Below are positions 7,246 to 63,698 of a stretch of 64,000 bases of DNA, piece by piece. This DNA comes from Thermomonas sp. (GTDB lineage: Bacteria; Pseudomonadota; Gammaproteobacteria; Xanthomonadales; Xanthomonadaceae): contig NZ_JAQSDO010000020.1 of assembly GCF_029945965.1 (NCBI RefSeq), forward strand, positions 62,001-126,000. Reading direction: 5' to 3'. Made by a program: the position numbers and the translations under genes. The first letter of the stretch is position 1. Each line of letters opens with the position of its first letter. The notes under the pieces were generated by a model that ran no database searches, was not told the DNA's origin, and worked only from the letters and a program-made list of their open reading frames with translations.

Positions 7246-8196
7246 ATGCATGGTGGCAACGGCGACGAAAAAAGCAGCGATGGAAGCCGTGGCGTGCTGG
7301 CGCGACTGCATGGCGTCAGCAAGGCCTACGGAAAATTGCGTGCGCTGGACGGGATCGACCTGTGCCTGCACCAAGGCGAGTTGCTGGCCTTGCTCGGCCC
7401 GAATGGCGCCGGCAAGACCACCGCGATCGGCTTGTTGCTCGGCTTGATCCGCGCCGATGCCGGCGAAGTCAGCCTGTTCGGGCTGGATCCGCAGGACATT
7501 CGCGCACGCCGCAACATCGGCGTGATGCTGCAGGACGCGGCATTGCCGCTGACTTTGCGCGTCGGCGAATTGATCCGGCTCACTGCGAGCTATTACCCGA
7601 ACCCGCGCAGCGTCGCCGAAAGCGCCGACCTTGCCGGCGTCACCGACCTGTTGAAGCGTCCCTACGGCAAGTTGTCCGGTGGCCAGCAGCGCCGCGTGCA
7701 ATTCGCACTGGCATTGTGCGGTCGCCCGCGCTTGTTGTTCCTCGACGAGCCCACCGTCGGCATGGACATCGATGCACGGCAAAGACTGTGGGTGGCAATC
7801 CGGCATCTGGTCGCCGAAGGCAATTCGGTTGTATTGACCACGCACTACCTGGAAGAAGCCGAAGCGCTGGCGACACGTGTTTGCGTGATGGCGCGCGGAC
7901 GGGTGATCAGCGAAGGCAGCGTGGAAGCGCTGCGTGCACGGATCGCCTTGAAGCGGGTCTGGTGCTCGACAAAGTTGACGCTGGAAGAGCTGCAGGCGTG
8001 GCCTGAAGTCGCAGAGGCGCGCATTGATGGCGAACGCCTGTGCCTGTCCACCGAACATCCGGAACTGCTGGTGCGCCGGCTGCTGGCGCAGGACATCGCG
8101 CTCAAAGGCCTTGAAGTGCGCGCCGCCGGCCTGGCCGAAGCCTTCACCGAACTCACCCGCGACGACGACAAAGTCGCCCTGCAGGAAGCCGCCTGA
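7246..8196 (+). CDS. ABC transporter ATP-binding protein (ABC-2 exporter, LnrL/YvfR-like)
   Basis: A 316-residue ATPase with Walker A GPNGAGKTT, signature KLSGGQQRR, Walker B LLFLDEPTVGMD and H-loop TTHYLEEAEAL, followed by a C-terminal domain as in drug- and antibiotic-export ATPases of the DrrA/CcmA group. ATG 7246 has GGAGG eight bases upstream. It overlaps the permease gene by one base and is in an operon with a DesK-like kinase and NarL-like regulator. That arrangement resembles the Bacillus lnrJK-lnrLMN (linearmycin resistance) layout, so sensing and export of a membrane-active compound is a reasonable inference, not shown. Confidence 0.92.
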   Translation: MHGGNGDEKSSDGSRGVLARLHGVSKAYGKLRALDGIDLCLHQGELLALLGPNGAGKTTAIGLLLGLIRADAGEVSLFGLDPQDIRARRNIGVMLQDAALPLTLRVGELIRLTASYYPNPRSVAESADLAGVTDLLKRPYGKLSGGQQRRVQFALALCGRPRLLFLDEPTVGMDIDARQRLWVAIRHLVAEGNSVVLTTHYLEEAEALATRVCVMARGRVISEGSVEALRARIALKRVWCSTKLTLEELQAWPEVAEARIDGERLCLSTEHPELLVRRLLAQDIALKGLEVRAAGLAEAFTELTRDDDKVALQEAA

Positions 8197-8975
8197 TGAA
8201 CACCACGATTGCTCCCATGAGTGCTGCGATGCCACGCGCGCTCGTGTTCAACGCCTATGTGCAGGAAGCGCGCAGCGAAATCGTGCGCTACCTGCGCAAT
8301 CCCGGCTTCCTGTTGCCGGTGATCCTGTTTCCTACGGTGTTCTACCTGATGTTCGGGGTAGCGCTGGCGCATGCGGAAGCACCGGGCATGGCCACCTACC
8401 TGCTGGCGAGCTATGGCACGTTCGGTGTGATGAGTCCGGGTCTGTTCGGCTTCGGGGTATCGCTGGCGCTTGAGCGCGACAACGGCCTGCTCACCCTCAA
8501 GCGCGCGTTGCCGATGCCACCCGCCGCCTATCTGCTGGGCAAGATGTTGATGGCGATGATCTCGGCCGCCATGGTCATCCTGCTGTTGCTGGGCCTGGCC
8601 GTCGGCGTCGCGCATGTTTCGCTCAGTGTCGGCCAGGCCGCTGCGCTGTTGCTTACCGGCACGCTTGGCGTGCTGCCGTTCTGCGCGCTGGGCATGCTGG
8701 TCGGCACCCTGATCAAGGGCCAGGGCGCGCCCGGCATGCTCAACCTGATCTATCTGCCGATGTCGTTCCTGTCGGGCTTGTGGGTGCCGTTGCAGATCCT
8801 GCCGGCGACCCTGCAGCGCATTGCACCGGTGTGGCCCAGCTATCACCTCGACCAGATCGCCTTGCATGCGCTGGGTGTCACCCATGGGCCGGTGTTGCAG
8901 CACGTGTTGGTGTTGTGCGGCTTCACCGCCGGCTTCCTGTGGCTGGCCGCGCGCCGGTTGCGCCGGAATGGCTGA
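8196..8975 (+). CDS. ABC-2 type transporter permease
   Basis: A 259-residue protein with six hydrophobic segments: one near PGFLLPVILFPTVFYLMFGV, a cluster between residues about 65 and 185, and a last one at the C-terminus near residue 240. This matches the ABC2_membrane fold of export permeases. Its ATG overlaps the ATPase stop (TGATG), indicating translational coupling with the ATP-binding subunit. Only one permease gene is present, so the transporter probably works as a homodimer of permeases. Confidence 0.9.
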   Translation: MNTTIAPMSAAMPRALVFNAYVQEARSEIVRYLRNPGFLLPVILFPTVFYLMFGVALAHAEAPGMATYLLASYGTFGVMSPGLFGFGVSLALERDNGLLTLKRALPMPPAAYLLGKMLMAMISAAMVILLLLGLAVGVAHVSLSVGQAAALLLTGTLGVLPFCALGMLVGTLIKGQGAPGMLNLIYLPMSFLSGLWVPLQILPATLQRIAPVWPSYHLDQIALHALGVTHGPVLQHVLVLCGFTAGFLWLAARRLRRNG

Positions 8976-9010
8976 GCGTTGATCAACGCGGCGTGCAGTA
9001 GCATCCACTC

Positions 9011-10258
9011 GTGAAACTTCCAAAGCTCCTTCGCCAATGGATGACGCCAGCGCCGGATTCAACTACGGCTGATGCGATCCGTCGCGGCAAGTCGCCGTGG
9101 GCCGATTCCGTGCACCTGTTGTGGTCGCTTTGGGTGTTTATAACCCCGCTGCTGAACAATGGCTACGACGTGCGTTGGGTGGCACTGACATTGGTGTCTT
9201 ACCCGATATTCCTGTGGTTGTATGTCAGGGTGCTGCTCGCGCCGCGCCGGAATAGCTGGCGTTATGCACTCGGCATGGCGGCCTTGAGCCTGGTGTTGTT
9301 GCGCTGGTATCCGTCAGGCCTCAGCTACTTCATTTTCGGCTGCGTGATGATGCGGGTGTCCGCATCGCGCCCAAGCCTGGGCCGCTATCTCCTGCAGCTG
9401 CTGGCGATGAACGCGGTGTATATCGGGGTCGTCGCTTGGATCGGCTATCCCCTGCAGATGTGGTTGTGGGTGCCGGTGATGACACTGATCATCGGCGTGA
9501 TCATCAATGTCGAACATGCCAGCCAAGAGAAAGACGCAGCACTGGCGTTGTCGCACGACGAAGTGCGCCGGTTGGCCGCGACCGCCGAGCGCGAACGCAT
9601 CGGCCGCGACCTGCACGATCTTCTGGGCCATACGCTGTCGCTAATCACCCTGAAGCTGGAACTGGCGCGCAAGCTATCCGAGCGCGACCCCGATGCATCG
9701 CGGCGTGAGCTGGTCGATGCCGAACGCGTGGCGCGCAGTGCACTGGCTGAAGTGCGCAGCGCGGTCACCGGGATTCGCTCGACCGGCCTGGCTGCGGAGC
9801 TGGCGTCGGCGCGCTTGATGCTGGAATGCTCGCAGGTACACCTGCAGTACGAACTGCCGCCGGGCAACCTGCCGGAAGCACTCGAGCATGGCCTGGCGTT
9901 GGTGTTGCGCGAAGCCGCCACCAACATCACCCGGCATGCCCAGGCCGGGCGTGCGCAAATGCGGTTCGTACGCGAAACGGACGTGCTGCAACTGACGATT
10001 GCCGATGATGGTCGCGGCGGCGTCAATACCGATGGCAATGGCCTTGCCGGCATGCGCGATCGCGTGCGCGAACTTGGCGGCACCCTTAGCATCGAATCCC
10101 CGCGTGGTGGCGGTACCCGGCTACTGGTAAGGGTGCCAATCAAAGACATCGAGGCCGAGGATATTGAAAACGGAGACATCGAGAGCGGGGGCCGCCATCA
10201 GGCCATCGAAGGACTGACCCAGCTGTCGCGACTCGGCGGCGCGGGATGGCCGGCGTGA
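9011..10258 (+). CDS. Sensor histidine kinase, DesK/NarL-type (HPK7)
   Basis: A 415-residue membrane kinase: four to five transmembrane helices in residues 35-165, a HisKA_3 dimerisation domain with RIGRDLHDLLGHTLSLI (phospho-acceptor His about 202), and a HATPase_c domain with the N box LREAATNITRHAQA and G boxes DDGRGG and NGLAGMRDR. The helices sense a membrane signal in DesK relatives. After the ATPase domain there is an odd acidic tail, KDIEAEDIENGDIESGG, with repeated DIE units, not part of the family core. Translation appears to begin at GTG 9011. It overlaps the response-regulator gene by 13 bases. Confidence 0.92.
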   Translation: MKLPKLLRQWMTPAPDSTTADAIRRGKSPWADSVHLLWSLWVFITPLLNNGYDVRWVALTLVSYPIFLWLYVRVLLAPRRNSWRYALGMAALSLVLLRWYPSGLSYFIFGCVMMRVSASRPSLGRYLLQLLAMNAVYIGVVAWIGYPLQMWLWVPVMTLIIGVIINVEHASQEKDAALALSHDEVRRLAATAERERIGRDLHDLLGHTLSLITLKLELARKLSERDPDASRRELVDAERVARSALAEVRSAVTGIRSTGLAAELASARLMLECSQVHLQYELPPGNLPEALEHGLALVLREAATNITRHAQAGRAQMRFVRETDVLQLTIADDGRGGVNTDGNGLAGMRDRVRELGGTLSIESPRGGGTRLLVRVPIKDIEAEDIENGDIESGGRHQAIEGLTQLSRLGGAGWPA

Positions 10259-10866
10259 CCACTTCAATTCGGATCTTGTTGGCCGAAGACCAGGCCATGG
10301 TGCGCGGTGCGTTGACGGCGCTGCTGGGGCTGGAAGATGATCTCGAAGTCGTTGGCGCCGCCGCTGATGGCGAAGCGGCATGGCGCGAACTGCAGCGGCT
10401 GAAACCCGACCTGCTGGTGACCGACATCGAAATGCCCGGCCTGTCCGGGCTGGAACTGGCGCAGCGGATCCAACGCCACGAATTGCCGACCAAAGTGGTG
10501 ATCGTCACCACCTTCGGGCGTGCCGGTTTCCTGCGCCGGGCGCTCGATGCCGGCGTCTGCGGATACCTGCTCAAGGACGCGCCGGCCGAAGACTTGGCCG
10601 AAGCCTTGCGCAAGGTGTATAAAGGCGGCCGCGCGATCGACCCGCAATTGGCGCTGGACGCCTGGGGCAAGGCCGATCCGCTGAACGACCGCGAGCGCCA
10701 GGTGCTGCGGCTGGCCGGCGAGGGCATGTCAGCCGGCGAGATCGCGAGCCAGCTGAATCTTTCGCAGGGCACCGTGCGCAACTACCTGTCCGAGGCGATC
10801 GGCAAGCTGGGCGTCGGCAACCGGATCGAGGCTTACCGGCTGGCGCGGCAACAGGGCTGGCTTTAG
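10246..10866 (+). CDS. Response regulator, NarL/DesR type with LuxR helix-turn-helix
   Basis: A 206-residue two-domain regulator. The receiver has the acidic pair in LLAEDQ, phospho-acceptor Asp about 60 in LLVTDIEMPG, and Lys in YLLKDAP. The output domain has LNDRERQVLRLAGEGMSAGEIA and LNLSQGTVRNYLSEAIGKL, the LuxR/GerE fold. It is co-transcribed with the kinase and the ABC exporter and is the likely transcriptional activator of that operon. The inverted repeat upstream of the operon at 7150-7178 is a possible target, though this is inference. Confidence 0.94.
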   Translation: MAGVTTSIRILLAEDQAMVRGALTALLGLEDDLEVVGAAADGEAAWRELQRLKPDLLVTDIEMPGLSGLELAQRIQRHELPTKVVIVTTFGRAGFLRRALDAGVCGYLLKDAPAEDLAEALRKVYKGGRAIDPQLALDAWGKADPLNDRERQVLRLAGEGMSAGEIASQLNLSQGTVRNYLSEAIGKLGVGNRIEAYRLARQQGWL

Positions 10867-10955
10867 CGGTTGCAGGCGGTTGGCACGATGCTTGCTTGAA
10901 TGTTCCTGGGGCGTTCGAAGGTTCGCCGCCTACCGCAACGAGGCAGCATGCACGC

Positions 10956-12638
10956 ATGAACAACGATACTCGCCAGCGCAGTCGTACCGGGTTGATCATG
11001 GCCGCGGTCATTTTCATCGCGATCGGCGTCGGCGTGGTGCTGGGCGCGCATCGATTGATCATGGATGCGTCGTCGGTGACCCATAGCAACGAGGTCATCG
11101 TGCGCATCGACGAGCTCGAAGCGAGGTTGCGCGATGCCGAGGCGGCGCAACGTGGCTACCTGCTCACCGCCAATCCGATCTTCCTTGCCGACTACCGCAA
11201 CGCCAGCGAGAAATTGCCGGGTATCTATGCAGATCTGCGCGGGCGCATTCACGATAACCCCGCGCAATTGGCCCGTGCGCAGTCGCTGTGGGCGCATGTA
11301 CAGCAGCGCGCACGACAGCTGGCGCAAACCCTAAGTCGCTATCGCGAAGGGGGGTTGCCCGCTGCACAAGCAGCCATCGACCACGGCGTCATCGAGTCGT
11401 CGACCGCGATCCGCCAGCAGGCCGAGGCGATGCGCGAGGCCGAAGTCATCCTGCTCGTGCAGCGCGGCGAGTCGACCCATGACAGCGCAAACCTGCTGCG
11501 TGAGCTGGCCTTGCTCGGCATTCCGATCGGGATCCTGGTGATCCTTTCGGTATACCGCCTGCTGGTGCTGGAGATCCGTCGGCGCGGACAAGCGGAAGGA
11601 GAGACCGCGCAAGCCAACGAACAGCTTCAGGTCACGCTGGAGCGCGTGGAGCTTCGCAGCACCGAACTGCGGGCACTGAGCAATTACGGCAGCATGCTGC
11701 AAAGTTGTGCCCAGCCCGAAGAAGCCTGGCAGCTGACCGAAAGCCTGTTCGCCACGATCTTGCCAGACGCGGCCGGTAGCATCTACCGAATTCGCAATTC
11801 GCAGGATCATGCCGAGCTCGCCGCGCAATGGGGCGAGACTGCGCAAGTGTCCCCCGAGATGATCGCGGTCGATGCCTGCTGGGCGCTGCGTCGCGGCCAG
11901 CCGCATGCAACCGATGCGATGCATGGCGCGCGCTGCACGCACCTGGGCGCCGAAGGCGCCGTGGATTCAACCGACTTATGCGTGCCGCTGGTGGCCCAGG
12001 GCGCCCAGCTCGGGTTGCTCAGCCTCTCGAGTAGCGAGCAATCGCTGTCGGCGCATCGCGACATCATTGAAGCAGCGGTCGAAAAACTGTCGATGGCGTT
12101 GGCCAATCTGTCGCTGCAGGATCGCCTGCGCCAGCAGTCGATCCGCGATCCGTTGACTGGCCTGTTCAACCGCCGCTACCTGGAGGAATCCGCCACGCGC
12201 GAACTGGCCCGTTGCGCGCGTCGGGGCCTGCCGTTATCGCTTCTGATGCTGGATATCGACCATTTCAAGTCCTTCAATGACCTGCATGGACATGCGGGTG
12301 GTGACACCGTGCTGGCGCAGTTCGGCAAGCTGTTGCAGACGATTACCCGTGGCGAGGACATCGTCTGCCGCTATGGCGGCGAGGAATTCACCCTGATCCT
12401 GCCCGAGGCCGACGTCGAGGCAGCTAGCGCGCGTGCCGAAGCGATCCGGTTGGCGGTGGAAGCCATGCAGGTGCCGTATCTGGGCAAGCTGCTGCCGAAG
12501 GTGACGGTGTCGATCGGGGTGGCCGGTTACCCCGCACATGGCCAGACCCAGGAGACGTTGATGCAGGCAGCCGACAAGGCGCTCTATCAGGCCAAGCGTG
12601 CCGGCCGCAACCGGATTGAGATTGCCATAGGCATGTGA
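10956..12638 (+). CDS. Membrane diguanylate cyclase with CHASE3-like sensor, GAF and GGDEF domains
   Basis: A 560-residue protein. A first helix at residues 10-32 and a second near 205-225 flank a periplasmic four-helix CHASE3-like domain with AAQRGYLLTANPIFLADY. A coiled segment and a GAF-like region (about 250-400) follow, then a GGDEF domain with RYGGEEF, so the cyclase should be active in making cyclic di-GMP. RGED lies five residues before GGEEF, which is the RxxD product-inhibition site. DPLTGLFNRR marks the domain start. ATG 10956 is preferred to an upstream ATG because GAGG precedes it and it yields a normal N-terminus. It follows the response-regulator gene by about 90 bases. Confidence 0.92.
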   Translation: MNNDTRQRSRTGLIMAAVIFIAIGVGVVLGAHRLIMDASSVTHSNEVIVRIDELEARLRDAEAAQRGYLLTANPIFLADYRNASEKLPGIYADLRGRIHDNPAQLARAQSLWAHVQQRARQLAQTLSRYREGGLPAAQAAIDHGVIESSTAIRQQAEAMREAEVILLVQRGESTHDSANLLRELALLGIPIGILVILSVYRLLVLEIRRRGQAEGETAQANEQLQVTLERVELRSTELRALSNYGSMLQSCAQPEEAWQLTESLFATILPDAAGSIYRIRNSQDHAELAAQWGETAQVSPEMIAVDACWALRRGQPHATDAMHGARCTHLGAEGAVDSTDLCVPLVAQGAQLGLLSLSSSEQSLSAHRDIIEAAVEKLSMALANLSLQDRLRQQSIRDPLTGLFNRRYLEESATRELARCARRGLPLSLLMLDIDHFKSFNDLHGHAGGDTVLAQFGKLLQTITRGEDIVCRYGGEEFTLILPEADVEAASARAEAIRLAVEAMQVPYLGKLLPKVTVSIGVAGYPAHGQTQETLMQAADKALYQAKRAGRNRIEIAIGM

Positions 12639-52186: not shown

Positions 52187-54796
52187 TCAAGCGGCCTTGC
52201 TCGACTCCAGGAAATCCTGCGCAAACCGCTGCAGCATGCCGCCGGCTTCGTAGATCGACGCTTCTTCGGCGGTATCCAGCCGGCAGGTCATCGGCACGTC
52301 GATGCGTTCGCCATCGCGGCGATGGATGACAAGCGTCAGCTCCGCACCCGGCGCGGGTGTGCCGCGCACGTCGAAGGTTTCGCTGCCGTCGATGCCGAGC
52401 GTCTGCCGCGTCGTGCCCGGCTGGAACTGCAGCGGCAATGTACCCATGCCGATCAGGTTGGTGCGGTGGATGCGCTCGAAACCTTCGGCGGCGATTGCTT
52501 CCACGCCGGCCAGCCGCACGCCCTTGGCGGCCCAGTCGCGTGAACTGCCTTGGCCATAGTCTGCGCCGGCAACAATGATCAGCGGCTGCGCGCGGTCCAT
52601 GTAGGTTTCGATGGCTTCCCACATGCGCACAACCTCGCCTTCGGGCTCGATGCGTGCAAACGAACCTTGCCGTACCTTGCCATCGGCATCGCGCACCATT
52701 TCGTTCAATAGTTTCGGATTGGCGAAGGTCGCGCGCTGCGCGGTCAGGTGGTCGCCGCGATGGGTGGCGTAGGAATTGAAGTCCTCTTCCGGCACGCCCA
52801 TCTTGGTCAAATATTCACCAGCGGCGCTGCTGGCCATGATCGCATTGGACGGCGACATGTGGTCGGTGGTGATGTTGTCGCCGAGCACCGCCAGCGGACG
52901 CATGCCGGTCATGGTGCGTTTGCCGGCCAGCGCGCCTTCCCAATACGGTGGGCGGCGGATATAGGTGCTCATCTCACGCCAGTTGTAGAGCGGGCTGACC
53001 GCCGCGCCCTTGGCATGGACCGCAAACATCGGATCGTAGACCTGGCGGAATTGTTCTGGCTTGACCGAGGCCTTCACCACTGCGTCGATTTCTTCATCGC
53101 TCGGCCAGAGGTCCTTGAGCGTGACCGGCTTGCCATCATGGTCTAGTCCCAGCACGTCCTTCTCGATGTCGAAGCGGATAGTTCCGGCGATTGCATACGC
53201 GACCACCAACGGTGGCGAGGCCAGGAACGCCTGCTTCGCATACGGATGGATGCGGCCGTCGAAGTTGCGGTTGCCGGACAGCACTGCGGTTGAATACAGG
53301 TCGCGCTCGACGACTTCCTGCTGGATCGCCGGATCCAGCGCGCCGCTCATGCCGTTGCAGGTGGTGCAGGCGAAACCGACGATGCCGAAGCCGAGTGCTT
53401 CGAGTTCGGAGAGCAAGCCGGCTTCCTGCAGATAAAGCTCGACCGTCTTGGAGCCCGGCGCCAGCGAAGTCTTCACCCATGGCTTGCGGGTCAGCCCCTT
53501 GGCATTCGCGTTGCGTGCCAGCAGGCCGGCGGCAATCACGTTGCGTGGATTACTGGTGTTGGTGCAACTGGTGATCGCCGCAATAATCACCGCGCCATCC
53601 GGCATCAGTCCTTGCGCTTCCTGCTTCAGCGCACCGTCGAGGTTGTTTGCAATGCCGCTGCTGGAAAGCTCGCTGGTCGCCACCCGCTTGTGCGGAACGG
53701 ATGGCCCGGCCATGTTGCGCACCACCGACGACAGGTCGAAGTGCAGCGTGCGTTCGTACTTCGCATTCGCGAGTGCATCGGCCCACAAGCCGGTCTGCTT
53801 CGCATAGGTTTCGACCAGTGCGACCTGCGCGTCTTCGCGGCCGGTCAGGCGCAGGTAGTCCAGGGTCATGTCGTCGATGAAGAACATCGCCGCGGTCGCG
53901 CCGTACTCCGGCGCCATGTTGGAAATCGTCGCGCGGTCGCCCAGGGTCAATGCGGCAGCACCTTCGCCACGGAATTCCAGATAGGCGCCCACGACTTTCG
54001 ACGCACGCAGGAATTCGGTCATCGCCAGCACGACGTCGGTGGCGGTGATGCCGGGCTGCGGCTTGCCGCTGAGTTCCACGCCGATGATGTCCGGCAGGCG
54101 CATCCACGACGCGCGGCCAAGCATCACGCTTTCCGCTTCCAGCCCGCCCACGCCAATCGCAATCACGCCGAGCGAATCGACATGCGGGGTATGACTATCA
54201 GTGCCGACGCAGGTATCCGGGAAGGCGACGCCATCGTCGACCGCGACCACCGGGCTCATTCGTTCCAGGTTGATCTGATGCATGATCCCGTTGCCCGGCG
54301 GGATCACGTCGATGTTGCGGAACGCGAGTTTCGTCCAATCGATGAAATCGAAGCGATCCGCATTGCGACGGTTCTCGATCGCGCGATTCTTCAGGAATGC
54401 ATCGCGATCAAAACCGGCCGCTTCCACCGCCAACGAATGGTCCACGATCAACTGCACCGGCACCACCGGATTGACCTGCGCCGGGTCGCCGCCTTGTTCG
54501 GCGATCGCATCGCGCAGGCCCGCCAGATCGACCAGCGCGGTCTGGCCAAGGATGTCGTGGCAGACCACGCGTGCTGGGAACCACGGGAAATCGAGGTCGC
54601 GGCGACGTTCGATCAACTGGGTCAGGTAGGCATCCAGCAGCTCGGGCTCGGCACGGCGCACCAGGTTTTCGGCATGCACGCGGGCGGTGTAGGACAGCTG
54701 GTCCCAGGTGCCTGGCTGCAGCGCATCCACTGCAGCGTGCGCATCGAAATAGTCGAGGTCGGTGCCGGGCAGGGGCTTGCGGAACTGGGTATTCAT
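52187..54796 (-). CDS. acnD: Fe-S 2-methylisocitrate dehydratase AcnD
   Basis: An 869-residue aconitase-superfamily enzyme. The 4Fe-4S cysteines are Cys411 (TSCTNTSNP) and Cys477/Cys480 (FACTTCNGMSG). SGNRNFDGRIHP, DNITTDHMSPSNAI and GADYGQGSSRDWAAKG contain the other active-site residues. AcnD dehydrates methylcitrate to 2-methyl-trans-aconitate, which PrpF then isomerises; prpF and prpD follow on the same strand but at distance. prpB and prpC are not in the window. A LysR gene lies 81 bases upstream, also on the minus strand. Confidence 0.93.
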   Translation of the reverse strand: MNTQFRKPLPGTDLDYFDAHAAVDALQPGTWDQLSYTARVHAENLVRRAEPELLDAYLTQLIERRRDLDFPWFPARVVCHDILGQTALVDLAGLRDAIAEQGGDPAQVNPVVPVQLIVDHSLAVEAAGFDRDAFLKNRAIENRRNADRFDFIDWTKLAFRNIDVIPPGNGIMHQINLERMSPVVAVDDGVAFPDTCVGTDSHTPHVDSLGVIAIGVGGLEAESVMLGRASWMRLPDIIGVELSGKPQPGITATDVVLAMTEFLRASKVVGAYLEFRGEGAAALTLGDRATISNMAPEYGATAAMFFIDDMTLDYLRLTGREDAQVALVETYAKQTGLWADALANAKYERTLHFDLSSVVRNMAGPSVPHKRVATSELSSSGIANNLDGALKQEAQGLMPDGAVIIAAITSCTNTSNPRNVIAAGLLARNANAKGLTRKPWVKTSLAPGSKTVELYLQEAGLLSELEALGFGIVGFACTTCNGMSGALDPAIQQEVVERDLYSTAVLSGNRNFDGRIHPYAKQAFLASPPLVVAYAIAGTIRFDIEKDVLGLDHDGKPVTLKDLWPSDEEIDAVVKASVKPEQFRQVYDPMFAVHAKGAAVSPLYNWREMSTYIRRPPYWEGALAGKRTMTGMRPLAVLGDNITTDHMSPSNAIMASSAAGEYLTKMGVPEEDFNSYATHRGDHLTAQRATFANPKLLNEMVRDADGKVRQGSFARIEPEGEVVRMWEAIETYMDRAQPLIIVAGADYGQGSSRDWAAKGVRLAGVEAIAAEGFERIHRTNLIGMGTLPLQFQPGTTRQTLGIDGSETFDVRGTPAPGAELTLVIHRRDGERIDVPMTCRLDTAEEASIYEAGGMLQRFAQDFLESSKAA

Positions 54797-54877
54797 CGTG
54801 ATCGCGGGCGTTGCGGCAGAACCGCCATTGTCGCACCAGCGCTGTCGCCGGTTGCACGCCTGCCAGGTTGTGCACTG

Positions 54878-55768
54878 CTACGGCACTTCAAGTGCCTGCG
54901 TTGCAACCAGTTCACGCAGCAGCGGATTGGGAAAGCGCCGTGGCAGGGTCACCGCGTAGAACGTTTCGCTAAGGCGTGGCAGGGCATCGACCTGGACCAG
55001 CTGGCCGCTGGCCAGCTCATCCTTGACCACGATCGGCGGGACGACGGCTAGCCCGATGTCTTCGCGCGCCAGCAGACGCATCATCGCCATGTCGTCCACC
55101 TCGGCGGCAATCCGTGGGCGGATGCCGAGCCGGTCGACCAGCGCATCGAAGCCGGTGCGGATGCTGCTATGCAGGGTGGGCAATACCAGGGGTTCGCGCG
55201 CCAGCAGTTGTTCCAGCGTGGCGCCTTGGCCGATGCGGGCCGGCGTGCCAACCAGGCTCACGGCCTGTTCGGCGATCGGATGCGAGATCCAATGCGTGGC
55301 GGCATCGCGCGTGGGCGGCGCGTTGACCAACACCACATCCAGCCGATGCGCTTCGAGTCCCTGCAGCAGGTCGCCGGTCGCACCCGAGCGGATGATGATT
55401 TCCACATCGTCGCGTCCCAGCAATGGGCGCAGGAAGCTGATCTGGAAATTGCGTGACAGCGTGGCCAGTGAGCCCACCCGCAGCGCCAGGCGACGCTTGC
55501 CGGCCTGTTCCTGCAGGGTGCCGAGCAGTTCGGCGCCGGTGGCAAAGATCACGTCGGCATGATCCAGCGCAATGCGCCCGGCTTCGGTCAGCAGCAATTG
55601 CTTGCCACTGCGTTCGAATAAGGCATGGCCGATCTGTTCTTCCAGTTTGCGGATCTGGATGGACAGCGCGGACTGCGAGACGTGTAGCCGGTGCGCCGTG
55701 CGCGTGAGGTTGCCGTCGCGCGCGACCGCCCAGAAATAGCGCAAGTGGTTGTAGTTCAAGCCCGCCAT
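54878..55768 (-). CDS. LysR-family regulator, NhaR-like
   Basis: A 296-residue regulator. The wHTH has NYNHLRYFWAVARDGNLTRTAHRLHVSQSALSIQIRKLE, and the rest is a periplasmic-binding-fold effector domain. It is divergent from dabB-dabA across an AT-rich 105-base region with inverted repeats, and LysR genes beside dab operons are a known arrangement, so control of dab in response to carbon supply is inferred. Confidence 0.9.
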   Translation of the reverse strand: MAGLNYNHLRYFWAVARDGNLTRTAHRLHVSQSALSIQIRKLEEQIGHALFERSGKQLLLTEAGRIALDHADVIFATGAELLGTLQEQAGKRRLALRVGSLATLSRNFQISFLRPLLGRDDVEIIIRSGATGDLLQGLEAHRLDVVLVNAPPTRDAATHWISHPIAEQAVSLVGTPARIGQGATLEQLLAREPLVLPTLHSSIRTGFDALVDRLGIRPRIAAEVDDMAMMRLLAREDIGLAVVPPIVVKDELASGQLVQVDALPRLSETFYAVTLPRRFPNPLLRELVATQALEVP

Positions 55769-55772
55769 GTGA

Positions 55773-55824
55773 TCATTCTATTTTTAATATTGATTCATTG
55801 CACATAATGAATTTTATAGAATGA
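55773..55824. promoter_or_regulatory. LysR-type operator region in the dab divergent promoter
   Basis: TCATTCTAT (55773-55781) and ATAGAATGA (55816-55824) are perfect inverted arms 34 bases apart. Inside, TTCATT-GCACAT-AATGAA is a second inverted repeat. The stretch is markedly AT-rich in a GC-rich region. Confidence 0.55.
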
Positions 55825-55873
55825 TAGTGCTCACGTAGCGTGCCGGGACTTCAACGCTGTTCCGGAGCCCGCA

Positions 55874-57571
55874 ATGCCCCCATTTTTTGCTGCACTGGTC
55901 TTGGTCGCGCCCGGTCTGCTGCTTTGCGTAGCCTTGCTGGCGCTGTCAACGTCCGGCATGCGGCCCGCTGGCATCCTGCTGAGTAGCCGCATCGCGACAT
56001 TGGCAGCGTTGCTGCTTGCGGTCGCAGCAACAGTCTGGGTGACATGGCAGGGGCCGGTCACCAGTCCGCTGCTCGGGCTTGGCGGGCTCGGTCTGTCCAT
56101 CAGGCTGGATCCGGTCAGCTGCACGATGTTCCTGCTGGTCGCGTTCGTGGGCACGATCGTTGTTCAGTACAGCCGCAATTATCTGGATGGCGATGCACGC
56201 CAGGGCGCGTTCATCGGCGGCCTGTGCCTGACGATTTCTGCAGTGTTGTTACTGGTGCTGGCCGGCAACCTGTTCCAGCTGGCGGCGGCCTGGATCGCGA
56301 CCAGCCTGTCTTTGCATCAGCTGCTCATGTTCTATCGCGAGCGACCTGCAGCGGTGCTGGCGGCGCGCAAGAAATTCATCACCGCGCGGCTTGGCGATAC
56401 CGGCTTGCTGGGTGCATGCGTGCTGCTTGCCTCCGCGTTCGGAAGCAGTGACATCGCCACCATCCTTGAGCGTGCGCGCGAACTCGATGCTGCTGCAGTG
56501 CCCGCATCGCTGCAATTTGCGGCCTTGCTGCTTGCCTGCGCCGCACTATTGAAGTCGGCGCAGTTCCCGACCCACGGTTGGCTGCCCGAAGTGATGGAAA
56601 CGCCGACGCCGGTGTCGGCGCTGTTGCATGCCGGCATCATCAATGCGGGTGGCTTCCTGGTGATCCGGTTCGCCGACGTGATGTTGCTGTCGGCACCGTC
56701 ACTGCACGTGCTCGCCGTGGTCGGTGGGTTTACTGCACTGTTCGGGAGCGTGGTCATGCTGACCCAGCCCAGTGTCAAGGGATCGCTGGCCTGGTCGACC
56801 GTGTCGCAAATGGGATTCATGCTGCTGCAGTGCGGCTTTGGCGCGTTCTCGGTCGCCCTGCTGCATATCGTGGCGCACTCGCTGTACAAGGCGCATGCGT
56901 TCCTGTCGTCCGGCAGCGTCGTCGAGCTTGCGCGCAGCGCGGTAGCGCCCCGTGAGCAAGGCACGTCCCGGGTCATGGTGGGCGTGGCCAGCCTTGGGTT
57001 TGCGATGGCGCTTTACGTTGCGATGAATTTCGCGCTGGCATCAGTTGTGGATGCGGATGCCACGCTTTCACCCGCCGTCTTCACCCTGGGCACGATCCTG
57101 GTGCTTGGTGTGGCGTTGTTCATTGCCCAATCCGTTCCGCTGGCAGCAGGTGCCGGCAGCATGGCGGCATCGCCCAATATGCCTGCGATGGATGCAGCGA
57201 ACGCGCAAACCTCGCATCTCAGTTTGCGCGTGTTGGTTCGCACGTTGGCGGCTGCTGCGTTCGCCACCGCTGCCTACTTCCTGCTGCAACAACTCGCGGC
57301 CTGGTGGACGCAACCCAGCTTGCCCGCAATACCAGTCGCCAGCCCGGTCGGGTTGGCGATCATGGGGCTAGCGGTGCTGTCGTTCGCGATCGTCGCCCTC
57401 CTGCAATTGATGGCACCGGCGCGAATCGGCAATCCGCACTGGCGCGCGGCACGCGTGCATCTGGCAAATGGTCTTTACGTCAACGCATGGTTCGACCGCT
57501 TGGTAGGCGCGTTGCGGCGCCCGCTTGCCCATGTATCTGGCAACACATCTGGAAAGGAGCAGGCGGCATGA
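55874..57571 (+). CDS. dabB: DabB, proton-conducting membrane subunit of the DAB inorganic-carbon system
   Basis: A 565-residue membrane protein with about 14 helices of the NuoL/Mrp antiporter family. FPTHGWLPEVMETPTPVSALLHAGIINAGG and KAHAFLSSGSVVELAR hold the conserved Lys/His/Glu proton path. In DAB systems this subunit couples proton flow to the CO2-hydrating subunit DabA. It overlaps dabA by four bases. GGAG lies before ATG 55874. Unlike Complex I subunits no other nuo genes are near, supporting the DAB call. Confidence 0.9.
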   Translation: MPPFFAALVLVAPGLLLCVALLALSTSGMRPAGILLSSRIATLAALLLAVAATVWVTWQGPVTSPLLGLGGLGLSIRLDPVSCTMFLLVAFVGTIVVQYSRNYLDGDARQGAFIGGLCLTISAVLLLVLAGNLFQLAAAWIATSLSLHQLLMFYRERPAAVLAARKKFITARLGDTGLLGACVLLASAFGSSDIATILERARELDAAAVPASLQFAALLLACAALLKSAQFPTHGWLPEVMETPTPVSALLHAGIINAGGFLVIRFADVMLLSAPSLHVLAVVGGFTALFGSVVMLTQPSVKGSLAWSTVSQMGFMLLQCGFGAFSVALLHIVAHSLYKAHAFLSSGSVVELARSAVAPREQGTSRVMVGVASLGFAMALYVAMNFALASVVDADATLSPAVFTLGTILVLGVALFIAQSVPLAAGAGSMAASPNMPAMDAANAQTSHLSLRVLVRTLAAAAFATAAYFLLQQLAAWWTQPSLPAIPVASPVGLAIMGLAVLSFAIVALLQLMAPARIGNPHWRAARVHLANGLYVNAWFDRLVGALRRPLAHVSGNTSGKEQAA

Positions 57572-60102
57572 ACGCACCCGCACGGTTTGTAGCGGACGAC
57601 ACGGTCGAAGTGTTGTATTCAGCCGCATCGATCGCAGTGAGTGGTGTGCGCGATGCTGCCGAGCGCGCGGCCAACCGGATCGCGCCGCTGTGGCCGCTCA
57701 AGGATTTCGTGGCAGTCAATCCGTTTCTTGGTTTCGCCGATACATCCTTCGTCGAAGCCGGCAAAACCATGCGGCGTGCAGCATCCGCAAGCATGACCAT
57801 GCCGCGCGCGTTCTATGCACAAGCACTTGCCAGCGGGCGCATCGCCGATGCCGACCTCGCCGCCGCCCTGGCGCGGATCCCGGCATCGCACGATGGGCCT
57901 CACGAGTGGCCGCAGGATGTTGCCGAGTTGAAGCAGATCCTTGCACACGGCGAGCCCATGCATGTCCAAGCGATGGCAACGGCCGCCGATGTTGCCAGCC
58001 ACGCGACCGGTCGGGATTGGGCAGGCTTTGCAGTGGCGCGGATCTCGACGTGGGCCGCCACGCATTACGACCAAGGCCAAGCCCCGTGGAAACCGGTCAC
58101 GCGCGCGCTTCCGGCATATGCGTCGTGGCGCGCCGAGGCCTGTATCGACCGGACGCCGCAGGTGATGGGTCTGCAAGGGTTCCACAAGATCATCGAAGCA
58201 CTGCCGGACGATGCCGAGTCCATGATCGCGGAGGGCGCGCGTCGCCTCGGCCTGTCCGCGGATGTGCTGGAGGCATACTTTCATCGCTTGCTGATGAGCG
58301 TGGCGGGCTGGGCCGGGTATGCGCGCTACCAGACTTGGCAATGCGCACTGCAGGGTGGAAATGATCGCAGCGTGCTGGAACTACTCGCCGTGTGCCTGGC
58401 CTGGGACGTGGCTGTGCTGGAAGCACTGGCTGGTCATCCGGCCGTGGTACGGGGATGGGTTGATGCGCGCGCGGAACTTGCCTCCAGTCCAGCAGACATC
58501 GATGCCAATAGTGCGATCAACGCCGTCCTGCAGGACGCCTACGAAATCGCCTGGCAGCGCACCCTGATCGGTGCACTTGATCGCACTGCATCACCAGTGC
58601 CGCCGGCAGCGCACATGCGCGCTTCCGTACAGGCGGCGTTCTGCATCGACGTGCGCTCCGAAGTGTTCCGGCGTGCATTCGAGGCGGCGGGAACCGACAT
58701 CGAAACGATTGGTTTTGCCGGATTCTTTGGTGTCGCGATGGACCATGTACCGCTGGGCCAACGCCAAGGCAGCGCGCAATGCCCGGTGCTGCTGGCGCCA
58801 CGCTTCACGATTCGTGAAACCGTGCAGGGCGCACCGGCCGATGCGCAGGCCGGCATCCTGCAGCTGCGGCTGGTGCGGCGCAGGGTTGCTTCTGCATGGC
58901 GTGCATTTCGTACCGCAGCGGTGTCGTCGTTCGCCTTTGTCGAAACCATGGGCTGGACCTACGCCGTGAAGTTGGCCGGTGATTCGCTGGGTGTGAGCCG
59001 TGTGGTGCCGCATCCCGCCACCGACGGCGTGGACGCCGCGATCCGCCAGCGGCTGGCACCGGATATCGCGCCATCCCATGTCCACGGAGAAGCGACGGGC
59101 GTGCTGCCAGAGGACCGGGTCGCGCTGGCGGAATCGATCCTGCGCGGCATGTCACTGCAGCGGGATTTCGCCCGCCTGGTGCTGCTGGTCGGCCATGGCG
59201 CCACTACCGTCAACAACCCGCATGCCAGCGGTCTGGATTGCGGTGCTTGCGGTGGTCACCCGGGTGATGCCAACGCACGCGTGGCGGCGGCCGTCCTCAA
59301 TGATGCGCAGGTGCGCGATGCGCTTGCGGCGCGCGGTATCGCGATTCCCGACGACACCGTGTTCGTGGGATGCCTGCATGACACGACCACTGACGTCGTC
59401 ACCGTGTTCGAGCAGGCGTTGCTGCCCGCCAGTCACGCCGGCGATATGCAGCAGACGCAGCAATGGCTGGCACTGGCAGGTCGCGCGGCGCGCCGCGAAC
59501 GCGCTGCACTGCTGCATGTTGATGCAGACAAACCACTTGATGCACAGCTACTGGCACGCACCCGCGATTGGAGTCAGGTGCGACCCGAATGGGGCCTGGC
59601 CGGATGCGCGGCGTTCATTGCGGCGCCACGCGGGCGCACGGCAGCATTGGACCTGCAAGGTCGCGCCTTCCTGCACAGCTACGACTGGCGCCAGGACGAC
59701 GGCTTCGGCGTACTGGAGCTGATCATGACCGCGCCGATGGTGGTCGCCAGCTGGATCAACCTGCAGTACTACGGATCGACCGTCGACAACCGCGTGTTCG
59801 GTTGTGGCAACAAGGTCCTGCACAACGTGGTCGGCACGCTGGGTGTGCTGGAAGGCAACGGCGGCGACCTGCGTAGTGGCCTGCCCTGGCAGTCGCTGCA
59901 TGACGGCGAGCGCTTGATCCATGAGCCGATGCGATTGTCGGTGGTGATTCACGCGCCGCTTGCCGCGATTGGCGCGGTCATTGCCAAGCATGCGTCCGTC
60001 CGCCAGCTGGTGGACAACGGCTGGCTGCACCTGTTCGCGATGGGCGATGCAGGCACGCCACTGCAACGCTACATCGGCAATCTGTGCTGGGAGCCTGCGT
60101 GA
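57568..60102 (+). CDS. dabA: DabA, zinc carbonic-anhydrase-like subunit (DUF2309)
   Basis: An 844-residue cytoplasmic protein. The expected zinc and active-site residues are present: Cys359 and Asp361 (AFCIDVRSE), His543 (LVGHGATTVNNP) and Cys558 (GLDCGACGGHPG), the last two spaced by 15 as in characterised DabA. With DabB it drives one-way hydration of CO2 to bicarbonate. No RuBisCO is in the window, so use for anaplerosis or biosynthesis is likely. ATG 57568 has GGAG upstream. Its stop overlaps the GTG of the next gene (GTGA). Confidence 0.93.
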   Translation: MNAPARFVADDTVEVLYSAASIAVSGVRDAAERAANRIAPLWPLKDFVAVNPFLGFADTSFVEAGKTMRRAASASMTMPRAFYAQALASGRIADADLAAALARIPASHDGPHEWPQDVAELKQILAHGEPMHVQAMATAADVASHATGRDWAGFAVARISTWAATHYDQGQAPWKPVTRALPAYASWRAEACIDRTPQVMGLQGFHKIIEALPDDAESMIAEGARRLGLSADVLEAYFHRLLMSVAGWAGYARYQTWQCALQGGNDRSVLELLAVCLAWDVAVLEALAGHPAVVRGWVDARAELASSPADIDANSAINAVLQDAYEIAWQRTLIGALDRTASPVPPAAHMRASVQAAFCIDVRSEVFRRAFEAAGTDIETIGFAGFFGVAMDHVPLGQRQGSAQCPVLLAPRFTIRETVQGAPADAQAGILQLRLVRRRVASAWRAFRTAAVSSFAFVETMGWTYAVKLAGDSLGVSRVVPHPATDGVDAAIRQRLAPDIAPSHVHGEATGVLPEDRVALAESILRGMSLQRDFARLVLLVGHGATTVNNPHASGLDCGACGGHPGDANARVAAAVLNDAQVRDALAARGIAIPDDTVFVGCLHDTTTDVVTVFEQALLPASHAGDMQQTQQWLALAGRAARRERAALLHVDADKPLDAQLLARTRDWSQVRPEWGLAGCAAFIAAPRGRTAALDLQGRAFLHSYDWRQDDGFGVLELIMTAPMVVASWINLQYYGSTVDNRVFGCGNKVLHNVVGTLGVLEGNGGDLRSGLPWQSLHDGERLIHEPMRLSVVIHAPLAAIGAVIAKHASVRQLVDNGWLHLFAMGDAGTPLQRYIGNLCWEPA

Positions 60103-61094
60103 ACCTGCATTCCTCGAACAGCGTCCGCCAAGCCGCTGATGTGTTGCGCAACGGCGGGCTTGTCGGCTTGCCTACCGAAACGGTGTACGGATTGGCGGCC
60201 GATGCGCGCAATCCAGCGGCGGTTGCAAGGATCTTCGCGGCAAAACAACGTCCCGTGGACCATCCGTTGATCGTGCACCTGCGCCATGCCGAACAACTTC
60301 GAGCCTAGGCGCGCGATATTCCCGAAGACGCATGGCGGTTGGCACGGACGTTCTGGCCCGGCCCGCTCACCCTGATCCTGCGCCGGGCAACAGGCGTGCT
60401 GGATGCCGTGACCGGCGGGCTGGACACCGTGGCCTTGCGCGTACCAGATCATCCGCTGGCATTGGCGGTGCTGGAGCAGTTCGGCGATGGCATCGCCGCG
60501 CCTTCGGCCAATCGCTACGGGCGTGTGAGCCCAACGTTCGCCGCGCATGTGCGCGAGGAACTGGGCGATGCGGTCGACCTGGTGCTGGACGGTGGTCCAT
60601 GCTGGATCGGCATCGAATCCACCATCGTCGACATGACCGGTGGCAGTGCCTGCGTGCTGCGGCCCGGCGCCATCACCGAAACGGACCTGCATCAGGCATT
60701 GGACAAGGCGCTGCGCCGAGGCATCGAGCCCGACACGCCCTGTCCCGGCATGAAGACCTCGCACTACGCGCCCAACGCACGCGTGTTGCTGTCTTCTCCA
60801 GAGCAGGCCACGCACGATGTTGCGGCATGTCGCGCGCGCGGGCGCCGGGTGGGGTTGTTGGGTACGCACAAGCCGCGCAGCCTGCCTGCAGACGTGCATT
60901 GGCTGGGCTTGCGCCAGGACGTCGCCGGGCAGGCGCAACAGCTGTACCAGCGCTTGCGCGATGCCGATCATCTGGCGCTGGACGTCGTGGTGGCGGTGGT
61001 CCCGGCCGGTGATGGACTGGCACATGCGCTGCGCGACCGCCTGCAACGTGCGGCAGGGCTTGGTGACATGCCGCCTGTTGGCCACACGTCATGA
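60099..61094 (+). pseudogene. Threonylcarbamoyl-AMP synthase (Sua5/TsaC type) interrupted by an amber codon
   Basis: The 331-codon gene opens at GTG 60099, overlapping dabA. It has the YrdC fold with GGLVGLPTETVYGLAADA, AKQRPVDHPLIVHL, FWPGPLTLIL, APSANRYGRVSPTFA and a Sua5-type C-terminal domain. At codon 70 (60306-60308) TAG interrupts the frame where homologues have Trp (AWARDIP). Both sides stay in the same frame, so a single base change would restore it. The enzyme uses threonine, ATP and bicarbonate to start the tRNA t6A modification. As the reaction is essential, another tsaC copy probably exists if this one is inactive. Confidence 0.85.
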
Positions 61095-61155
61095 AGACCA
61101 AAACGGCACGTGCCACGCTCGGCTCACATCTGCGTTTCTGCGCGTGAGAGCGCCA

Positions 61156-62073
61156 ATGTCACTAATGGATGCCACGCTTTCAGCGCACCTCGCCGCACTT
61201 GAGAATGAGGCAATTTTCATCCTGCGTGAAGCCGTCGCCGAAGCGTGCAAACCGGTCCTGCTGTTCTCTGCGGGCAAGGATTCAACCGTGCTCGCACATC
61301 TGGCGATGCGTGCGTTCCATCCCGCCAGACCGCCGATGCCGTTGCTGCATATCGATTCAACTTGGGAATTTGCATCACTGCTTGCGTTCCGCGACGCATT
61401 TGCGGCGCGGCACGGCTTCGAACTCATCGTGCATGCGAACGAGGAAGGGCGCCGCAAAGGTCTGAATCCCTTCGATCACGGTGACCGCTACACCAGCGCG
61501 ATGCGCACGCAGCCGTTGAAGCAGGCGTTGGCCGATGGCGGCTTCGACATCATCTTCGGCGGCGCGCGCCGCGACGAGGAAGCATCGCGGGCCAAGGAGC
61601 GCATCGTGTCCGTGCGCAGTGCGCAGCATGGGTGGGATCCGCGCCAGCAGCGCCCTGAACTGTGGAACCTCTACAACCTGCGGCTAGGGCGCGGCGCGTC
61701 GGCGCGTGTGTTCCCGCTGTCCAACTGGACCGAACTCGACGTGCTGCTGTACGTGTACGTGCATCGGATCGAACTGGCGCCACTTTATTTCGCAACGCCT
61801 CGACAAGTGGTTCAACGCGATGGTGGATGGATCGTCATTGACGATAACCGGCGCATGCACTGGCGGCCCGGTGACGTGCCGCAGACGCGCAGCGTGAGGT
61901 TTCGCACGCTTGGTTGCTGGCCGGTCACCGCAGCGGTCGAATCATCGGCATGCGGGCTGGCAGAGGTAATCCTGGAAACGCTGGCAAGCGGGCAGTCGGA
62001 ACGCAGCGGGCGGCTGGGCGACAACGAGGATGGCGGCTCACTGGAACAGAAGAAACGTGAAGGCTATTTCTGA
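61156..62073 (+). CDS. cysD: Sulfate adenylyltransferase small subunit-like protein, CysD
   Basis: A 305-residue PP-loop ATPase. FSAGKDSTV (38-46) is the PP-loop, with the later FGGARRDEEASRAKERI, RVFPLSNWTELDV, TLGCWPVTAAVES and a terminal KKREGYF all as in CysD. It makes APS from ATP and sulfate with the GTPase CysN, which is absent here. The N-terminal region departs from typical CysD (ILREAVAEACKPVLLFSAG), so it may be a diverged paralogue. It overlaps the next gene by 17 bases. Confidence 0.85.
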   Translation: MSLMDATLSAHLAALENEAIFILREAVAEACKPVLLFSAGKDSTVLAHLAMRAFHPARPPMPLLHIDSTWEFASLLAFRDAFAARHGFELIVHANEEGRRKGLNPFDHGDRYTSAMRTQPLKQALADGGFDIIFGGARRDEEASRAKERIVSVRSAQHGWDPRQQRPELWNLYNLRLGRGASARVFPLSNWTELDVLLYVYVHRIELAPLYFATPRQVVQRDGGWIVIDDNRRMHWRPGDVPQTRSVRFRTLGCWPVTAAVESSACGLAEVILETLASGQSERSGRLGDNEDGGSLEQKKREGYF

Positions 62074-62649
62074 TCATCCGTATCTGTCCCAACGCGTCGC
62101 GCTGCTGACCCAGCATGGCAAGCAGCAGGTGATTGCGCCTGCACTGCATGCGGCGGTCGGCTGCAAGGTCGAGCGGGTCGCCGGCATCGACACCGATCTG
62201 CTTGGCACGTTCGCACGGCAATGGCGCTTTCCCGGCCACCGCATGGTGGTGCGCCCGGCCTGTGATGGCGATTCGCGTATCCGCAAGGGCATCGCATCCT
62301 GGGAACAGCTTGAACGGCATTTCCGCTGGGCCCGGCAAACATCGACCAATGGACAGGTGTTCATCGAAACCGACATGCGCGCCGATGCCAATCCCTCGCG
62401 CATGAACGTCATTCGCAGCGCAGCGATCGAACCTGGCCAGCGCCTCGCATGCAGTGTCCCTGCTGTGAGGTTCCGGGCTTCTGGCGCGTTCGGATTGTGC
62501 CCGGACTGCCCCGTGGACTATGCGGTGAAGCCACGCGGGACGCCGTCGCAGAGATACTGGCGTGCGTGCAGTGCGACCACCATTGCGAGCGTGAACGCAC
62601 CGACGTGCGTGTCGCGGATCCGGCTCACTGTGACTTCTGTAATCCCTGA
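62057..62649 (+). pseudogene. Decayed DUF6671 gene (internal deletion and frameshift)
   Basis: From GTG 62057 the frame matches the start of DUF6671 (RVALLTQHGKQQVIAP), then jumps after LLGTFA to the late part of the family (RFPGHRMVVRPACDG, VFIETDMRADANPSRMNVI), missing about 100 residues. At 62447-62449 the coding moves by -1: the conserved end CPCCEVPGF, CVQCD and ADPAHCDFCNP follows in the other frame to 62649. Intact relatives have RLA-xx-CP at this place, so one lost base explains the shift. Confidence 0.75.
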
Positions 62650-62696
62650 CTGCTCGCTTTTGTCGCCACTGGCGCCCGCTCTTCTAGAATGCGCGG

Positions 62697-63698
62697 ATGA
62701 CATTGATCGATCCTGCTGCCCTGCGCCTGTCCGTTGCCCCGATGATGGATTGGACTGATACCCATTGCAGGGTCTTCCATCGGCTGCTGGCGCCGCATGC
62801 ACGTCTGTACACCGAGATGGTGCATGCCAATGCTGTAATCCACGGCGACCGTTCGCGCTTGCTGGCCATGGATCCGACTGAGCATCCGGTGGCGTTGCAA
62901 CTTGGCGGTAGCGATCCGGCGTTGCTCGCACAAGCCGCGCGGATTGGCGCCGAGGCCGGCTTCGACGAGATCAATCTCAATTGCGGCTGCCCGTCCGACC
63001 GCGTCCAGGCGGGTCGTTTCGGTGCCTGCCTGATGCGCGAACCGGCGCTGGTGGCCGAGGGCGTGGCGGCGATGATAGCGGCGTGCAATGTACCCGTGAC
63101 CGTGAAGTGTCGGCTGGGCGTGGATGACGACCACGACTGGAACCACTTCCTGGCCTTCATCGACACCATTGCCGATGCCGGCTGCCGGCTGTTCGTGGTG
63201 CATGCGCGCAATGCCTGGCTCAAGGGTCTCAGCCCGAAGGAAAACCGCGAAGTGCCGCCGCTGCGCTACGACTGGGCCTACCGGCTCAAGCACGAGCGGC
63301 CGCAGTTGCAGGTGATCGTCAATGGCGGGATTGCCGATGCCGCCGAAGCGCGCGCGCATTTGTCACACATGGATGGCGCGATGCTGGGCCGCGCCGCCTA
63401 CCACGATCCGTATTTGCTGCATCGGCTCGACGTCGAATGGTTCGGTGCCGAGCTTCGCAGCCGCGGCGATCTGTTGCGCGCCATGCAGCCCTATGTCGAA
63501 GCGCAGCTCGCGCGTGGTGGTCTGCTGAAACATATCGTCCGCCACGTACTCGGCCTGTTCGCCAGCCAGCCCGGCGGTCGTGCGTTCCGCCAGATCCTCA
63601 GCGAAGGCGCGCACAAGACCGGCGCCGACTGGTCACTGGTCGAACGCGCACTCTCACTGACGCATTCCAACAAGCAAGCCATCGAGCACGCCGCATGA
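62697..63698 (+). CDS. dusA: tRNA-dihydrouridine(20/20a) synthase DusA
   Basis: A 333-residue FMN enzyme that reduces uridines 20 and 20a of tRNA D-loops. RLSVAPMMDWTDTHCRVFHRLL, NLNCGCPSDRVQAGRFGACLM with the catalytic Cys, and KCRLGVDDDHDW are DusA landmarks. The C-terminal helical tRNA domain is complete. It overlaps the next gene by four bases (ATGA). Confidence 0.96.
   Translation: MTLIDPAALRLSVAPMMDWTDTHCRVFHRLLAPHARLYTEMVHANAVIHGDRSRLLAMDPTEHPVALQLGGSDPALLAQAARIGAEAGFDEINLNCGCPSDRVQAGRFGACLMREPALVAEGVAAMIAACNVPVTVKCRLGVDDDHDWNHFLAFIDTIADAGCRLFVVHARNAWLKGLSPKENREVPPLRYDWAYRLKHERPQLQVIVNGGIADAAEARAHLSHMDGAMLGRAAYHDPYLLHRLDVEWFGAELRSRGDLLRAMQPYVEAQLARGGLLKHIVRHVLGLFASQPGGRAFRQILSEGAHKTGADWSLVERALSLTHSNKQAIEHAA

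Follow-up and report, generated by a model that had tools for sequence, protein, structure and literature searches.

The window, a stretch of 64,000 nucleotides from Thermomonas sp., carries a block of genes in the order LysR-dabB-dabA-sua5-cysD-DUF6671, set between acnA and dusA. Its features and flanks are as follows.

52187-54796, minus strand: acnA, the left flank of the inserted block, an open reading frame that adjoins dusA in three same-genus genomes
54797-62696: the block, which three same-genus genomes do not have between acnA and dusA
54878-55768, minus strand: gene for a LysR-family regulator (PF00126 and PF03466), divergent from dabB
55874-57571, plus strand: dabB, membrane subunit of the predicted inorganic carbon pump (PF00361 and PF00662)
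57568-57571, plus strand: ATGA overlap of the dabB stop and the dabA start
57568-60102, plus strand: dabA (PF10070, 902 bits)
60099-60102, plus strand: GTGA overlap of the dabA stop and the sua5 start, an overlap of 4 bases being common to all six dabA-sua5 junctions looked at
60099-61094, plus strand: sua5-type TC-AMP synthase gene (PF01300 and PF03481), interrupted by an internal stop
60306-60308, plus strand: in-frame TAG at codon 70 of sua5
61156-62073, plus strand: cysD paralogue without an adjoining cysN (TIGR02039, 402.8 bits against a cut-off of 396.6)
62057-62649, plus strand: DUF6671 remnant (PF20376), with 88 codons missing and then a frameshift
62697-63698, plus strand: dusA, the right flank of the inserted block (PF01207, NF008774)

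Judging from domains, gene pairing and a zinc-site motif, dabB and dabA are predicted to encode a DAB inorganic carbon pump. DabA matches nearly the whole of the PF10070 profile (positions 2-747) and contains the Cys-x-Asp-x-Arg and His-(14)-Cys arrangement, and the gene for its DabB-type partner (PF00361) adjoins it with a four-base overlap. The LysR gene is divergent from dabB at most dab loci examined, as it is here; among nearest relatives, conservation of this regulator between loci reaches 79%, against 62% for dabA. The sequence-only reading had the dabA stop and the start of a Sua5-type gene overlapping as GTGA, and this is what lies at 60099-60102; such four-base overlaps suggest that translation is coupled.

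The gene behind dabA is indeed of the Sua5 type, with a YrdC domain (PF01300, matched in pieces) followed by Sua5_C (PF03481), but it does not stay open to 61094 as had been read: the TAG shuts the frame after 69 codons, and a genome-wide profile search likewise reports '1 TAG' inside it. The KxR and SxN motifs are both in frame, one on either side of the TAG, and the part that follows the stop is without the start of the YrdC domain, KxR included. A second PF01300 gene, stop-free and of TsaC length, lies on contig C8 of the same genome, so that t6A there does not depend on the window sua5. A working DabA-Sua5 coupling in this genome is rejected, as the TAG closes the sua5 frame; with sua5 interrupted and TsaC present, none would be expected. 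The coupling probably no longer works here, and the sua5 part of the block is most likely dead or nearly so, with t6A resting on TsaC. A sequencing error could account for the TAG, but the nearby lesions in DUF6671 (the 88-codon deletion and the frameshift) favour real decay. In a tree of Sua5 sequences, the window copy has a branch (0.40-0.42) that does not exceed in length those leading to L087 (0.47-0.48) and L166 (0.36-0.41), so any inactivation would be recent.

Further along the block, the cysD paralogue stands apart from the canonical cysD and cysN, which are adjacent on contig C15 of the same genome; no CysN match was found on the window contig (C20). A cysD also lies behind dabA in L074, L084-L086 and two Mesorhizobium plasmids. 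The DUF6671 remnant matches PF20376 in two pieces, at profile positions 65-147 and 151-217 and in different frames, and its 88 missing codons were counted by alignment with the intact relatives L176 and L178. One cysteine of its cysteine-rich tail is also altered. Lesions thus hit two of the four genes downstream of dabB (sua5 and DUF6671), dabA and cysD being open, and in the block as a whole the pump, its regulator and cysD are the only parts that look intact. In three genomes of the same genus (G146, G160, G233), acnA and dusA sit side by side, their matches 83 to 116 bases apart; given this empty site, the block was either gained in the window genome or lost in these. Base composition (64.3% for the block against 62.2% and 64.5% for the left and right flanks) gives no clear sign of foreign origin. 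One of the three, G146, which is without dab, has a sua5 with an open DUF6671 directly behind it (L161, 8253-10070).

Neither an adjacency unique to the window genome nor a linked sua5 that is always degraded fits what we found in other Lysobacterales, and both are rejected: in L054, L065 (Frateuria flava MAH-13), L066, L074 and L076, dabA overlaps an open sua5 by four bases, which bears out the conservation of dabB-dabA-sua5 that the sequence-only reading had proposed to look for. With the window included, the overlap is exactly four bases in all six junctions examined. Together with L087, where the order is sua5-dabB-dabA, this makes seven dab-sua5 loci in the Lysobacterales, and all seven genomes contain a second PF01300 gene. 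More distant linkage occurs in the gammaproteobacterial L158, L159 and L160, the first two with DUF6671 between dabA and sua5; in Salinivibrio L217, where LysR, dabB, dabA and sua5 follow the window order with 8 bases from dabA to sua5; and on a Nocardia plasmid (L209) that holds dab, sua5 and DUF6671 together. Salinivibrio and Vibrio belong to one family, and given this kinship dab linkage may, by analogy, explain the Vibrio case too.

How far this exceeds chance can be put in numbers. In the order sample (299 genomes), DabA was found in 19 genomes, Sua5_C in 78 and both in 10, three of which, our own included, have the two within 5 kb; in the class sample (321 genomes) the figures are 75, 45 and 13, again with three linked, our own included. 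Pooled and with our own genome left out, 4 of the 21 genomes with both genes are linked, against about 0.07 expected from random placement (P about 7e-7). A chance neighbourhood of unrelated genes has in its favour that most Sua5_C genes are unlinked to dab (75 of the 78 order-sample genomes with Sua5_C are without one beside DabA). Most DAB loci, likewise, are without sua5, which directly follows dabA at 4 of the 23 DabA loci of named genomes (L054, L065, L066 and L074). Against chance stand the placement statistic and a tree of 50 Sua5 sequences (15 linked and 35 unlinked), in which linkage falls in several deep lineages; on these grounds we reject it as next to impossible. On that tree, linkage needs eight changes, of which well-supported branches force at least five, and 499 of 500 shuffles are less clustered. 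The linked Sua5s do not form one clade; the link must thus have been made, or lost, several times.

KxR and SxN are kept in all 13 linked Sua5s checked, the interrupted window copy included. In G146, G233 and G261, the sole PF01300 gene is a Sua5 of the window Sua5's clade; t6A being nearly universal, we infer that these Sua5s must work. Among 109 plasmid records with Sua5, eight were examined: three are linked to dab or DUF6671 (L192, L209, L217), one lies beside a carbonic anhydrase gene (L218) and four are unlinked (L219, L220, L221, L222). In L218, a Streptomyces plasmid, sua5 adjoins the carbonic anhydrase gene at 7983-9924, with rpmF and a GTP-binding protein gene nearby.

DUF6671 offers a way into these neighbourhoods that does not start from the pump. 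It turned up in 14 of the 321 genomes of the class sample, in 6 of the 299 of the order sample and in 12 plasmid records out of 72,556, each of these 12 being opened at its best DUF6671 match; with a contig-edge fragment (G502) dropped and our own genome counted once, this gives 30 loci found without dab as bait, not all of them independent (Arthrobacter U41 gives two plasmids and genus g81 three genomes) and with flanks that vary from about 400 to 16000 bases. Dab or the bicarbonate transporter SbtA is present at 25 of the 30. The other companions are sua5 at nine loci (two of them broken, the window copy and L192), cysD at eight, pyrC and ilvD at seven each, TerC-type genes at five, bioA at three and bioD at two. 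All but one of the 30 have at least one of dab/SbtA, sua5, cysD, pyrC, ilvD, bioA and bioD, a count that is partly post hoc as the enzyme list was compiled after the first plasmid loci had been seen; the exception is G422 (L199). In the class sample, again without our own genome, 8 of the 10 genomes that have both DUF6671 and DabA place the two no more than 5 kb apart, and 4 of 7 do so for DUF6671 and Sua5_C. The fullest arrangement, dabA-DUF6671-pyrC-ilvD-bioA-bioD-sua5, runs along a single strand in L160 (G509). Related combinations occur outside the 30: DUF6671-ilvD beside dab in Halomonas faecis (L067), pyrC beside LysR-dab-sua5 in Oleiagrimonas (L054), and sua5 beside pyrC in G261 (L166). 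On the Pseudomonas hygromyciniae plasmid L192, the sua5 that follows DUF6671, pyrC and ilvD (10052-10994 for sua5) is split into two parts whose frames differ. An apparent remnant, a partial DUF6671 match with an internal TAG, lies beside dabA in L203 (G474, C5:17004-17255).

At 35 of 35 control dab loci, which have neither DUF6671 nor sua5, we found no pyrC, ilvD, bioA, bioD or cysD; these loci came in batches of 23, 6 and 6, and in two of them (L061, L093) the sequence runs out no more than 50 bases from dabA. The controls do hold SbtA at L058, an annotated gamma carbonic anhydrase at L213 and a weak 25% match to ccrA at L078. From the 123 plasmid records with DabA, those opened besides the DUF6671 carriers were six as controls and L217 by way of its Sua5; class-sample DabA genomes without DUF6671 were compared with Sua5_C alone, by coordinates.

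Several of the companions depend on CO2 or bicarbonate. Sua5 combines threonine, ATP and bicarbonate into TC-AMP, from which tRNA t6A is made; one lysine of PyrC is carboxylated, a carbamate formed with CO2, and this lysine is kept in all eight PyrC checked; BioD consumes CO2; and the Methylocystis plasmid locus adds an acyl-CoA carboxylase and a crotonyl-CoA carboxylase/reductase, both of which incorporate bicarbonate or CO2. In enzymes of the IlvD family, the lysine of a Cys-Asp-Lys motif is carbamylated, according to the excerpt of PMC5770437 available to us, and the motif is kept in all four IlvD checked. The use of bicarbonate by Sua5 is described in the excerpts seen of PMC5951830 and PMC10321239, the former giving human YRDC a Km of 13 mM bicarbonate for TC-AMP formation and a drop in human mitochondrial t6A without bicarbonate. 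The synthesis of t6A can thus be limited by bicarbonate. Shared CO2 chemistry leaves CysD, TerC and DUF6671 unexplained, and we know of no CO2 need for CysD.

Taken together, we read the acnA-dusA block as a partly decayed inorganic-carbon island, a bicarbonate pump with spare CO2-dependent enzymes, and give this a probability of roughly 0.6. The LysR-regulated DAB pump, presumably induced at low CO2, would raise cell bicarbonate, and the genes translated serially behind it would supply spare copies of enzymes that need CO2 or bicarbonate in their reaction or active site, thereby keeping CO2-dependent steps going when CO2 is scarce. The spare enzyme would be Sua5 in the window, and elsewhere one or more of PyrC, IlvD and BioD (the last with BioA), in most cases accompanied by DUF6671; DUF6671 and CysD may have a part as well. 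In the window itself, the spare sua5 would have been closed by its stop and DUF6671 deleted and frameshifted, leaving t6A to the separate TsaC. The scheme builds on what was observed: gene order, overlaps, recurrence, lesions, the second TsaC and the empty site in same-genus genomes. Several points weigh against it, namely that cysD, with no CO2 need known to us, is among the commonest companions, that most Sua5_C genes are unlinked and most DAB loci without sua5, that the DUF6671 locus of G422 (L199) has no companions, and that the window's own sua5 and DUF6671 are broken. In its widest form the idea would be that mobile, DUF6671-marked islands are widespread, combine a Dab or SbtA transporter with spare versions of those enzymes that are the first to fail for want of CO2 (Sua5, PyrC, IlvD, BioD and others), account for many genomes with both TsaC and Sua5, and point to a bacterial t6A synthesis that is CO2-limited; here we consider the odds to be about even.

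The sequence-only reading had proposed something narrower, that DabAB supplies bicarbonate locally to Sua5 or that t6A serves as a sensor tying inorganic carbon to translation. The recurrence of the four-base overlap in six of six junctions speaks for it, as do the high bicarbonate Km of the human enzyme and the mitochondrial t6A drop without bicarbonate (PMC5951830, in the excerpt seen). However, bicarbonate is a shared cytosolic pool that the pump raises as a whole, other CO2-dependent enzymes occupy the same neighbourhood and make an account built on sua5 too narrow, the order is sua5-dabB-dabA in L087, DUF6671 separates dabA from sua5 in L158 and L159, and the window copy is interrupted. 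We thus regard local supply or sensing as improbable: private channelling from pump to Sua5 is unnecessary to explain the pairing, which is better explained by a common low-CO2 demand than by private supply to a single enzyme. What stands of the proposal is that bicarbonate uptake is truly and repeatedly linked to t6A synthesis, one case of a broader link to CO2-dependent enzymes.

Two further explanations concern the islands as a whole. Perhaps the essential genes are hitch-hikers, with sua5, pyrC and ilvD stabilising a mobile dab island as hosts lose their own copy and become dependent on it; the absence of the block from three same-genus genomes, the presence of such islands on plasmids, and the sole PF01300 gene of G146, G233 and G261, a Sua5 of the window Sua5's clade, are all in keeping with this. 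Yet a second PF01300 gene is still present in all seven Lysobacterales genomes with a dab-linked sua5, and the choice of bicarbonate transporters and CO2-dependent enzymes would go unexplained, which makes hitch-hiking unlikely in our view, if the least unlikely of the alternatives. A little less likely again is an island against metal or alkaline stress, in which IlvD (an iron-sulphur enzyme), PyrC (zinc), TerC and others would replace enzymes failing under metal imbalance or high pH, bicarbonate uptake being one of several responses. The TerC-type genes at 5 of the 30 DUF6671 loci, an NhaR annotation near one of them, the Streptomyces plasmid with sua5 beside carbonic anhydrase, rpmF and a GTP-binding protein, and the cysteine-rich C-terminal segment of DUF6671 could all be accommodated in this way, but Sua5 and BioD are not known as metal-sensitive targets, and a bicarbonate transporter is found at 25 of the 30 loci against TerC at five.

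If the inorganic-carbon island is the correct reading, it tells which enzyme steps are the first to become limiting for bacteria short of CO2, places DUF6671 in a functional class, and accounts for the two TC-AMP synthases kept by some genomes. A bacterial bicarbonate limit on t6A, and hence on translation, would become directly testable, with a precedent in human mitochondria in the excerpt seen of PMC5951830. The case also illustrates how the reading of a single genome can mislead, as the pairing is real as a trait of the lineage and broken where it was first noticed. As the sequence-only reading had supposed, no earlier description of the dab-sua5 pairing came to light in the literature searched, which covered few subscription journals; neither the island link nor DUF6671 was found there.

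The members of the block can be compared with known systems. For DUF6671, searches against PDB sequences gave a best E of 1.7, and none of 35 pattern matches in viral contigs was confirmed. A DUF6671 model, built for a relative from four sequences (mean pLDDT 78.8), shows a weak resemblance to the nucleotide phosphatase fold of YjjX (1u5w; E 7.5e-4, TM 0.26 by query and 0.40 by target) and, more weakly still, RdgB. The window CysD resembles CysD, the sulfate adenylyltransferase small subunit, in scoring above the TIGR02039 cut-off and having the PAPS_reduct domain, but differs from the canonical protein in being an additional, more divergent copy that has no adjoining cysN. The window Sua5 is like other Sua5 (TsaC2) proteins in its YrdC and Sua5_C domains and in keeping KxR and SxN, and unlike the usual ones in having a TsaC in its genome, a linkage to a bicarbonate pump and an internal stop; TsaC and Sua5 in one genome are called rare in the portion of PMC10321239 at hand. 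The dab genes resemble the DAB pump, with PF10070 and PF00361 subunits in one operon and the zinc-site residues kept, the site in DabA (Cys, Asp-Arg dyad, His, Cys) agreeing with that given in the part of PMC13144422 available. Unlike the DAB pump described there, the window pump has sua5, cysD and DUF6671 behind dabA, companions that this part of the paper does not mention, and the same source gives MpsAB of Staphylococcus aureus as likewise a DAB-type, two-gene inorganic carbon system in a heterotroph.
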